A stretch of DNA of 45,833 bases from Rhizobium sp. Q54 (GTDB taxonomy: Bacteria; Pseudomonadota; Alphaproteobacteria; SHVV01): positions 1 to 45,833 of the forward strand of contig CAMDOQ010000003.1 of assembly GCA_945903685.1 (NCBI GenBank). Direction: 5' to 3'. The notes under the pieces were generated by a model, which was given only the letters and a program-made list of their open reading frames with translations, was not told the origin of the DNA and did not search any database. Positions 22,361 to 25,821 of this stretch are shown here, piece after piece. The translations under genes and the position numbers were made by a program. The stretch's first letter is position 1. Each line of letters begins with the position of its first letter.

Positions 22361-23872
22361 CTATTTCCAGATCGGCTTGCCCGACCCGGGGAGACCGAGC
22401 CGCGGCCACCTCTCGGTCACCGTCTTCACGACCGCATCGCTCATCCGGATCTGCGTCCCCCAGGTGCGGCTCGTCTCGGGCGCGATCTTGGTGGTGGCGT
22501 CGAGCCCGATCTTCGAGCCCAGGCCCGACTCCGGGCTCGCGAAATCGAGATAGTCGATCGGCGTCGCCTCGATCAGCGTGATGTCGCGGGCCGGATCCAT
22601 CCGGGTCGAGACCGCCCACATCACGTCCTTCCAGTTGCGGACGTCGATGTCGTCGTCCACGACGATCACCCACTTCGTGTACATGAACTGCGTCAGGTAC
22701 GACCACACCGCCATCATCACGCGCTTGGCATGGCCGGGGTAACGCTTCTTCATTGCCACCACCGCGACCCGGTAGGAGCAAGCTTCGGGCGGGAGATAGA
22801 AGTCGACGATCTCCGGGAACTGCTGGGTGAGCAGCGGCACGAACAGCTCGTTCAGCGCTTCGCCCAGGATCGAGGGCTCATCCGGCGGCCGCCCGGTGAA
22901 GGTCGAGAGGTAGATCGGATCGCGCCGCATCGTGATCGCGCTCACGGTGAAGACCGGGAACTGCTCCACCGCGTTGTAGTAGCCGGTGTGATCGCCGTAG
23001 GGGCCCTCGTCGCGATAGTCGTCGAGCGAAACGTAGCCCTCGATCACGATCTCGGCTTCGGCCGGCACCTTCAACGGCACGGTCTTGCAGTCGACCAGCT
23101 CGACCCGTTTGCCGCGCAGGAGCCCTGCGAACTGATATTCCGACAAGGTCTCCGGCACCGGCGTCACTGCGGCGATGATGGTGCCGGGATCGGCGCCGAT
23201 CACAGCCGCGGCCGGCAGGGGATCCCGCCGCGACGCGCCCCAGGCGCGGTGGTGCTGGGCGCCGCCCCGGTGCTTCAACCACCGCATCAGGGTCTGGTTC
23301 TTGCCAATCACCTGGAGGCGGTAGATGCCTAGATTATAGCGGTCCTCCGCTTCCGACCCCGGCGGGCCTTTGGTGACGATCAAGGGCCACGTGATCAACG
23401 GCGCCGGCTCGTTTGGCCAGCAGGTTTGGATCGGGAGTCGATTGAGGTCGATGTCGGCGCCGGTCAGGACGATCTCCTGCGCCGGTCCGCTGCCGAGGGT
23501 CTTGGGCTTCATCGCGAGCAGCGTCTTCAGAAGTGGCGCGAGCTCCAAGGCATCGCGCAACCCCTTGGGCGGCTCGGGCTGGCGCAGGAATGCCAAGGTG
23601 TCGCCGAGCGCGCGCAAGGTCGCCGGCTCGCGGTCCATGCCCCAGGCGACCCGTTCGACCGAACCGAACAGGTTGACGAGGACCGGCATCGCGCTCCGGC
23701 TGCCGTCGGCCTTGATCGCGTTCTCGAACAAGACCGCCGGCCCGCGCTCGGCCAGAAGCCGGGTCTGGATCTCGGTCATCTCCAAGACGGTCGAGACCGG
23801 CTCGGCGACGCGCACGAGCTGGCCCGCCGCTTCGAGGCGGCTCAGGAATTCGCGGAGGTTGGCATAAGGCAT
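22361..23872 (-). CDS. ubiD: UbiD-family prenylated-FMN decarboxylase (4-hydroxy-3-polyprenylbenzoate decarboxylase)
   Basis: A 503-residue UbiD, which uses prenylated FMN to decarboxylate 4-hydroxy-3-polyprenylbenzoate in ubiquinone synthesis. The N-terminal [18 protein letters not shown], the cofactor-binding [26 protein letters not shown], and the acidic catalytic region [13 protein letters not shown] are all canonical. ubiA lies on the same strand just upstream, supporting the ubiquinone role over degradation of aromatic acids. The two are separated by the toxin-antitoxin module. A TATACT -10-like box lies 11 bp before the ATG at 23872, but I see no good -35. UbiX is not in the window. 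Confidence 0.93.
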
Positions 23873-23938: not shown

Positions 23939-24292
23939 CTAACGGCGCGGCCGCTCGGTCTCCCTTTTCATCGCGCGTACCGCTCGCGCAAGCTCCGCCA
24001 GATGCGATCGAGCGACCTGCCAAATGGCATCGATCGATACGGAACGATATTCGTGGCGGAGGATGTTCCCGATCCCGGCGATCTTGGCCCACGGAATCTC
24101 GGGATACTTCGATTTCATCGAATCCGGCACCCGGCGGCTCGCTTCGGAGACGATTTCGAGGCAGCGCGTCACCGCGTCTTGGGTTCGTTTATCGCGGCCG
24201 AAGCCAGCGCGGGTCATGCCTTTGGTATAGCTCTCGATCCGCCGGATCGCGTCGAGAATGTCGTTGACGTAGATCGTCGGCGTCTTGGCCAT
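23939..24292 (-). CDS. hepT: HepT-like toxin (DUF86 family HEPN protein)
   Basis: A 117-residue all-helical HEPN protein of the HepT/DUF86 family, toxin partner of MNT nucleotidyltransferases and expected to act on RNA in the cytoplasm. The start TPTIYVNDILDAIRRIESYT, the central QDAVTRCLEIVSEAS, and the C-terminal IAGIGNILRHEYRSV are diagnostic. The usual RX4-6HXY motif is modified: Arg79 lies directly before His80 (RHEY, Tyr82), and the canonical upstream Arg position is Gly. Tyr82 would be the residue AMPylated by MNT in characterised pairs. ATG 24292 overlaps the antitoxin stop as ATGA, the usual antitoxin-first order. Confidence 0.88.
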   Translation of the reverse strand: MAKTPTIYVNDILDAIRRIESYTKGMTRAGFGRDKRTQDAVTRCLEIVSEASRRVPDSMKSKYPEIPWAKIAGIGNILRHEYRSVSIDAIWQVARSHLAELARAVRAMKRETERPRR

Positions 24293-24723
24293 CAGAAGAC
24301 GCGCTTGGCTTCGGCCAGGACTTTGCCGCGGAGCTCCTTGCGCAGACTCTTTTTCACGATGACGTCGACGGCATGTCCGACCGCGTTCGACAAATCGGTT
24401 TGAATGCCGGCCTGATCGAGCAGGCTGAACCGGCTGTTCGGCGCGACCTCGATCAAGACATCGATGTCGCTGTCTGGCCCGGCCTCGCCGCGTGCGACCG
24501 ACCCGAACAAATAAAGCGCATCGACCCCTTTGGCGCGGAGGTCGGTCTCGATCCGTCGGATCGCTTTCTCGACCGTCGTTCGATCGGGCGCGAGTCGTTT
24601 CCCGGCCGTCTGGTGAAGCAAACGCAACGCTTCGCGCACCACCTCGCTCGCGTTGTTGTAAAAGCCCGAAGCGACCCGGTCGCGGATGAACTTCTCGAGT
24701 TCCGGGGTGAGCGATACGTTCAT
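24292..24723 (-). CDS. Fusion antitoxin: ParD-like ribbon-helix-helix domain plus MNT nucleotidyltransferase domain
   Basis: A 143-residue protein with two recognisable parts. Residues 1-38 (MNVSLTPELEKFIRDRV, NNASEVVREALRLL) are a ParD-type RHH DNA-binding domain. Residues 66-143 are a minimal nucleotidyltransferase with GSX10DXD: Gly74-Ser75, Asp86 and Asp88 in LFGSVARGEAGPDSDIDV, plus a third Asp120 in HAVDVIV. MNT antitoxins neutralise HepT by adding AMP to it; ParD domains autoregulate and can bind ParE toxins. The next gene is hepT with an ATGA overlap. The fusion suggests one protein that both represses the operon and modifies the toxin. I chose ATG 24723; the frame stays open upstream through ubiA only by GC bias. 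Confidence 0.87.
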   Translation of the reverse strand: MNVSLTPELEKFIRDRVASGFYNNASEVVREALRLLHQTAGKRLAPDRTTVEKAIRRIETDLRAKGVDALYLFGSVARGEAGPDSDIDVLIEVAPNSRFSLLDQAGIQTDLSNAVGHAVDVIVKKSLRKELRGKVLAEAKRVF

Positions 24724-24750
24724 TAAGCTAGTATAACAAACTTTGCTATA
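24721..24750 (-). promoter_or_regulatory. Promoter, palindromic operator and leaderless start of the toxin-antitoxin operon
   Basis: The AT-rich gap between ubiA and the antitoxin holds TATAGCAAA-G-TTTGTTATA (minus strand, 24750-24732), an inverted repeat with 8 of 9 arm positions matching. A -10-like TATACT (24735-24730) overlaps its right arm. The ATG follows only six bases after that hexamer, so transcription would start at or next to the A of the ATG and the mRNA would lack a leader. No Shine-Dalgarno is visible. This is a natural operator for the RHH domain. Confidence 0.6.
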
Positions 24751-24755
24751 TGTTG

Positions 24756-25736
24756 CTATCCGACCAAGTTCCCGGCGACGATCGCGGCGAGCACGATCCA
24801 GCCGAGATCGCGGTTCGAGCGGAACACCTTGAGGCAGTTGGCGGCATCGTCGAAGCGGACCCGCCGGACCTGCCAGGCGAAATGGAGCCCGACAGCGAGG
24901 AGGCCGGCGTAGAACGGCCAGCCGATTCCGCTCATCGCGCCGGCGGCCGTCAGCCCGACCATGAACGCGCCATAGAAGACGACGAGCCAAGGGCGCGTGG
25001 TCGTGCGCAGGGCGATCGCCGCCGAACCGACGCCAAAGACGGCATCGTCCTCCTTGTCCTGGTGTCCGTAGATGGTGTCGTAGCCCAAGGTCCAGGCGAT
25101 TCCGCCCACGTAAAGGGCGAGCGCGGGCCAGTCGAGCGTTCCGGTGACCGCCGCCCAGCCGAGGAGCGCGCCCCAGTTGAAGGCGAGGCCCAAAAAAAAC
25201 TGCGGCCAGCGGGTGAAGCGCTTGGCGAGCGGATAGATGCAGGCCGGGATGAGAGAAATGAGTCCGAGCCCGACCGCAGCCTGGTCGAAGGCGAGGAGCA
25301 CGCCGAGGCCGGTAAGCCCGAGCACTACCATGAAGACATAGGCCGCGCCGACCGAGACCTCTCCGGTCACGAGCGGGCGCGAGCGCGTGCGCGCGACCTG
25401 GGCATCGAGATCGCGGTCGCGGATGTCGTTCCAGACGCAGCCCGCGCCGCGCATGACCAGCGCGCCCAGACCCAAGAGCGCGAACAGGACCGGATCCGGC
25501 CAGCTGCCGCCGAGCCAGCCGGTCGGGGCCCAGCCTGGAAGGGTGCCGCCCGGATGCGGCGCGCCCGCGAATGGCGCGGCCAGCGCCAGGCTCCACCAGC
25601 ACGGCCATAAAAGGAGCCAGGTGCCGATCGGGCGATCGATCCGCGCGAGCTTGAAGTAGGGGCGCCACGCGACCGGCACCCAACGGTCGATCCAGTGGCC
25701 GGCCGGCATGTCGCCGGTGACGAAGGGCCCCCCCAT
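24756..25736 (-). CDS. ubiA: 4-hydroxybenzoate polyprenyltransferase
   Basis: UbiA is the inner-membrane prenyltransferase that attaches the polyprenyl tail to 4-hydroxybenzoate in ubiquinone synthesis. The 326-residue protein has about eight or nine transmembrane helices. Both Asp-rich Mg-diphosphate motifs are present: NDIRDRDLD, and DTIYGHQDKEDD with YGHQD typical of UbiA. RIDRPIGTWLLLWPCWW is the usual first helix. I favour ATG 25736; a TTG two codons earlier is possible. The stop lies 33 bp before the antitoxin ATG, so the ubiA 3' end abuts the toxin-antitoxin promoter. It is divergent from rsmE. Confidence 0.94.
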   Translation of the reverse strand: MGGPFVTGDMPAGHWIDRWVPVAWRPYFKLARIDRPIGTWLLLWPCWWSLALAAPFAGAPHPGGTLPGWAPTGWLGGSWPDPVLFALLGLGALVMRGAGCVWNDIRDRDLDAQVARTRSRPLVTGEVSVGAAYVFMVVLGLTGLGVLLAFDQAAVGLGLISLIPACIYPLAKRFTRWPQFFLGLAFNWGALLGWAAVTGTLDWPALALYVGGIAWTLGYDTIYGHQDKEDDAVFGVGSAAIALRTTTRPWLVVFYGAFMVGLTAAGAMSGIGWPFYAGLLAVGLHFAWQVRRVRFDDAANCLKVFRSNRDLGWIVLAAIVAGNLVG

Positions 25737-25821
25737 CGCCAACGCTTAGCGCGGGCGTCGGCGCGGCTCAAGCGCCGGAGCGTTCTTGTGCGCGGACGCT
25801 GCGCCCGCCTAACCTCCGCCG

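Follow-up and report, generated by a model that had tools for sequence, protein, structure and literature searches.

A ParD-type DNA-binding domain and a predicted parD operator on a HepT/MntA-like gene pair

The closest described counterpart of the gene pair analyzed here is the HepT/MntA system (HEPN/MNT, type VII; SO_3166/SO_3165), for which AMPylation has been established in Shewanella, and in which the MntA known so far lacks any DNA-binding domain (PMC7641770). An autoregulated operon that brings together a DNA-binding protein and an MNT is known from Xress-MNTss of Streptococcus suis, but there the two are separate polypeptides, and the role of toxin is ascribed to the MNT (PMC8406773). 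The available part of Makarova 2009 (PMC2701414) reports paREP1 RHH-HEPN fusions, in which a ribbon-helix-helix (RHH) domain is likewise attached to one of the components of HEPN-MNT systems; these are archaeal, however, with the RHH on the HEPN protein and no operon with an MNT. The same part of that article suggests a DNA-binding component acting in trans and describes fusions of HicB antitoxins with RHH or Xre domains, where a non-DNA-binding antitoxin domain has acquired a DNA-binding one, although this antitoxin domain and its toxin (HicA) are unrelated to our pair. It makes no mention of an RHH-MNT fusion, and the term RHH occurs nowhere in the text of Anantharaman 2013 (PMC3710099). The preliminary description of the locus knew of no account of a ParD-MNT fusion, and we too found no precedent in the open-access literature; a subscription paper could hold one.

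A nucleotidyltransferase antitoxin with a ParD-type N-terminus

The module lies on the reverse strand of a 45,833-nucleotide stretch of DNA from Rhizobium sp. Q54, hereafter the window. It consists of a fusion antitoxin gene (24292..24723, 143 aa) followed by a hepT-like toxin gene (23939..24292, 117 aa), both open reading frames being where the preliminary description had placed them. The partner was rightly named HepT/DUF86, as it matches the HepT-like family PF01934 (E 9e-27); the ATGA overlap reported for the pair proved to be a single common base at the fusion stop codon (TGATG, base 24292). The neighbors are ubiA (24756-25742) and ubiD (22361-23872), both also on the reverse strand, and no parE is adjacent.

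Like SO_3166/SO_3165, this is a two-gene operon combining PF01909 with PF01934, with a GSX10DXD motif and a third Asp in the nucleotidyltransferase and a Tyr by the HEPN His. It differs in the N-terminal RHH and parD operator of its antitoxin, in a HepT without the Arg of RX4HXY, and in that both proteins score below the NCBIfam equivalog cut-offs. With ParDE type II systems (TIGR02606/CC2985-type ParD) it shares the RHH and an upstream operator (ATAACAAA...TTTGTTA), but ParE is missing and a nucleotidyltransferase replaces the ParE-binding C-terminal part of ParD.

Profile searches bear out the joining of a ParD-like RHH to an MNT. TIGR02606, a model of ParD-family antitoxins, matches residues 1-56 (61.1 bits against a cut-off of 46.2, E 7.7e-17), and PF03693 matches residues 5-42 (30 bits against a cut-off of 21, E 7.4e-7); on these matches, and with PDB ParD entries 7ycs and 3kxe, we assign residues 1 to about 45 (24589..24723, reverse strand) to a predicted ParD-type RHH domain. 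The PF03693 match stops at profile position 46 of 81, so the C-terminal segment with which ParD binds ParE is gone from the fusion. A linker at about residues 41-48 leads into the MNT part, which begins at about residue 48. The minimal nucleotidyltransferase domain itself (residues about 49-143; 24295..24579, reverse strand) is matched by PF01909 (NTP_transf_2; residues 55-139, E 6.3e-16) and by the NCBIfam MntA model NF047752 (residues 66-142, E 2.6e-14, 53 bits, below the equivalog cut-off of 60). The GSX10DXD motif and third Asp noted earlier are present as G74-S75, D86 and D88, and D120, and the catalytic residues S75, D86, D88 and D120 are invariant across 19 aligned fusions.

Structure prediction of the 143-residue protein gave an AlphaFold2 model (mean pLDDT 84) with RHH helices at residues 7-18 and 25-40 and with an MNT fold. 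The best PDB matches of the model in Foldseek are to MntA (7bxo, E 1.8e-6) and to 1wot; its RHH part found no independent fold match there. Within the fusion, the strongest constraint is on the RHH, with dN/dS of 0.03-0.12 against 0.15-0.28 for the MNT, and purifying selection on the RHH is strong.

The predicted operator and the recurrence of the fusion

We modeled the parD operator with a 26-base weight matrix trained only on ParD-domain genes without an MNT, using 65 of 69 upstream regions; the consensus from these 65 genes is ATAACAAActTTGACAAAgTTTGTTA. The parD genes that have this operator mostly precede ParE-like genes directly, and all those tested (6/6) belonged to PF05016. Across the whole 45.8-kb window, the matrix finds a single strong site together with its overlapping registers (score 26.0), the next unrelated site scoring 0.5. 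This near-palindromic predicted operator (24733..24758, no strand assigned; plus strand ATAACAAACTTTGCTATATGTTGCTA) is separated from the ATG of the fusion by about 10 bp, and the near palindrome upstream of the gene reads TATAGCAAAGTTTGTTATA.

Matches to the parD operator model precede 22 of the 23 fusion genes, each site scoring above all 300 Markov shuffles, and the sole fusion without a match (L042) also has a broken hepT. The fusions have a median score of 24, against none of 18 MNT-only genes scoring above zero (Mann-Whitney p 7e-8); when upstream stretches of 500 bp were scanned for 32 MNT genes that lack a ParD domain, one of them a degenerate fusion remnant (L114), the best score was 4.0. 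The new element is the promoter: the parD operator is shared by the fusions and absent from MNT genes without a ParD domain. Given this distribution, the RHH travels with its operator, which is our main reason for believing that the RHH, as predicted, binds DNA. These sequence patterns indicate that the DNA-binding domain of ParD was acquired together with its operator and that the ParE-binding tail was lost.

In most relatives, the operator lies 30-47 bp before the start codon, 5' of the RHH. In the window, a putative -10-like hexamer, TATACT (24730..24735, reverse strand), adjoins it. The window has no sigma-70 consensus pair of 9/12 and no good -35 box, and no Shine-Dalgarno sequence lies between its operator and the ATG. 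With the operator so close to the ATG, the hexamer adjoining it and no good -35 box, the mRNA may be nearly leaderless. The operator also overlaps the ubiA stop codon, an arrangement that may tie control of the module to read-through from ubiA.

Searches for proteins with a ParD-type RHH followed by an MNT recovered 22 full-length fusions in distinct genomes, and one truncated copy (L051); beside 16 of the 22, an intact hepT lies directly downstream by profile match. The hosts are Alpha- and Gammaproteobacteria and Dadabacteria MAGs. One fusion carries a Poribacteria label that may reflect a binning error; a copy from Dadabacteria is nearly identical to it. The fusion of a genome of the same genus (G002; 91%) occupies the same site as that of the window, and other full-length relatives are found in G013 (69%) and G123 (54%). 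The species-level genome collection contributed L032-L050, and two further genomes of the class contributed L112 and L113; because the patterns used on this collection demanded near-exact RHH peptides, more divergent fusions may be missed. The fusion is rare, as in a phylum-wide sample of 399 genomes the full fusion occurred only in the genome to which the window belongs. Phage-borne spread found no support, a viral scan yielding four RHH-only matches and zero fusions, and in the plasmid collection no place spanned 80% of the query. In the congener G001, whose site was inspected for an empty insertion, the contig ends soon after ubiA and other sequence stands there. The degenerate remnant L114 (G185, 1501-1875) has an intact MNT and an RHH that is out of frame, with no hepT.

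The HepT partner and competing readings of the module

The window hepT is intact, with a dN/dS of 0.07 against its G294 orthologue, and its product scores 33.3 bits with the NCBIfam HepT model NF047751, short of the cut-off of 60. Where S. oneidensis HepT (5yep_B) has GLRNIAVHDY, the window protein has GIGNILRHEY: Gly75 stands at the Arg position of RX4HXY and Arg79 directly precedes His80, while H80-E81-Y82 is kept and with it the Tyr82 to which the preliminary description had pointed. Without the Arg of this motif, RNase activity is in doubt. The GIGN...RH form occurs in every fusion-partner HepT with a readable motif, and in that of L035 a His replaces the acceptor Tyr. Several HepTs beside MNT genes without ParD also have GxGNxxRHxY, and others keep MRNxLxHxY; the former, present beside ordinary MNT genes too, is thus characteristic of a HepT subfamily and either predates the fusion or arose independently of it, and it is possibly an alternative HEPN active site. 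We observed this subfamily, with and without the ParD fusion, in the window (23939-24292), L031, L118, L122 and L132.

The module is probably a variant HepT/MntA toxin-antitoxin system with autoregulation. An mnt-hepT pair would have gained, at its front, the 5' half of parD: promoter, operator and RHH, without the ParE-binding tail. The RHH would dimerize, bind the operator half-sites and repress the operon, as the co-inherited operator suggests, and the MNT domain would transfer AMP from ATP to Tyr82 of HepT, keeping it inactive, a step suggested by what is established for MntA and by the conservation of the catalytic residues. More speculatively, HepT bound to the MNT domain would probably alter how tightly the RHH dimer holds DNA, and repression would then follow the ratio of toxin to antitoxin, as it does in type II systems. 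The sequences themselves show the architecture, recurrence and gene order of the module, the shared inheritance of the operator and the purifying selection, while repression, AMPylation and the toxicity of HepT are predictions. The combination of operon autorepression with an MNT antitoxin, one of two possibilities raised in the preliminary description, is strongly supported by the contrast in operators between fusions and MNT-only genes and by the strong purifying selection on the RHH. Since the catalytic residues are intact, we infer that the fusion retains the antitoxin chemistry, and AMPylation of HepT is plausible, considering an intact MNT active site and an available acceptor Tyr, although the HepT RNase motif is atypical. 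Against the autoregulated HepT/MntA reading we count the absent HepT Arg, the Tyr-to-His change in L035, the six broken or absent hepT genes described below, the missed NF047752 and NF047751 cut-offs, and the want of a good -35 box in the window.

Beside six of the 22 fusions, hepT is broken or absent while the fusion frame is intact: it is frameshifted in L032 (G002), internally deleted in L033 (G013), interrupted in L049 (G123), truncated in L039 and L042, and absent in L044, where G74 of the GS motif is missing too. Together with the stronger conservation of the RHH than of the MNT, these cases could mean that the fusion acts chiefly as a repressor of transcription and outlives its toxin, as an orphan regulator or anti-addiction gene left after hepT decay, with nucleotidyltransferase activity secondary. 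We regard this as unlikely, since 16 of the 22 retain an intact hepT, the gene evolves at the low dN/dS given above in the window lineage, and the MNT active site is otherwise invariant; moreover, some of the broken or absent cases may be MAG errors, and the MAG frameshifts in hepT may be sequencing errors. The Gly in place of the catalytic Arg raises a different doubt, namely that HepT, rather than acting as an RNase toxin, serves the MNT as a substrate or a regulatory partner, which would make the pair a regulatory module instead of a toxin-antitoxin system. However, GxGNxxRHxY also occurs beside MNT genes without ParD, in a regular two-gene module, and HEPN proteins without RX4HXY have been reported as toxic (Anantharaman 2013, PMC3710099), which makes this reading distinctly unlikely.

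The other possibility raised in the preliminary description, binding of both toxin classes, would have the fusion neutralize a ParE toxin elsewhere in the genome in addition to HepT. The N-terminus does match the ParD family above cut-off, but dual binding is most improbable, as the ParE-binding tail beyond position 46 of 81 is missing; no parE adjoins the fusions examined, and a ParD-like search of the genome that contains the window (86% complete) gave no second match. Similarly, the missing Shine-Dalgarno sequence in the window, and the ATA that replaces the ATG start codon of the G002 fusion, might indicate that translation starts further downstream and leaves out the RHH, or that the fusion arose as an artefact of assembly or frame. 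We give this very little credence: the MNVSLTP start, the frame and the linker recur across 22 genomes, the operator keeps its place 5' of the RHH, and the RHH has the lowest dN/dS of the protein. A start after the RHH was rejected on conservation, frame and dN/dS, and an assembly artefact on the 22 recurrences.

Origin of the fusion and its meaning

In the MNT and HepT trees, the window type (the window, L032 and L112, and for MNT also L033) stands apart from the main group. A single fusion clade was not rejected (p-AU 0.42 for MNT, 0.40 for HepT and 0.63 for RHH), and one or two origins of the fusion are possible. Stand-alone ParD-RHH proteins of 62-65 aa, with a parD operator, were also observed directly before a DNA methylase gene (L056, 134-331; L136, reverse strand, about 1452-1686). 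The L056 methylase belongs to PF01555 and has an overlapping start, and that of L136 is a methylase-like reading, apparently frameshifted. The L056 RHH is 84% identical to that of the G123 fusion over 51 residues.

A broader reading, which we put forward tentatively, is that the parD promoter, operator and RHH together make up a portable cassette for self-regulation, which has been transferred to unrelated payloads, namely parE, the fused mnt-hepT, and the DNA methylase gene of restriction-modification type in L056 and L136. In the fusion, such a cassette would join AMPylation and operon repression in one polypeptide.

The MntA described so far lacks a DNA-binding domain, and a natural fusion with a recognizable operator makes autoregulation of a HepT/MntA-type module directly testable. 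Regulatory DNA and its cognate DNA-binding domain appear to move as one unit between toxin-antitoxin systems, the control being the MNT genes that have neither the domain nor the operator. That an enzyme of the MntA kind carries the DNA-binding half of ParD and the ParD promoter switch suggests that a ready-made self-regulation unit was transferred from one toxin-antitoxin system to another. If the cassette reading is true, covalent modification of a toxin would be linked to repression of its operon, bringing together type II-style autoregulation and a type VII mechanism.
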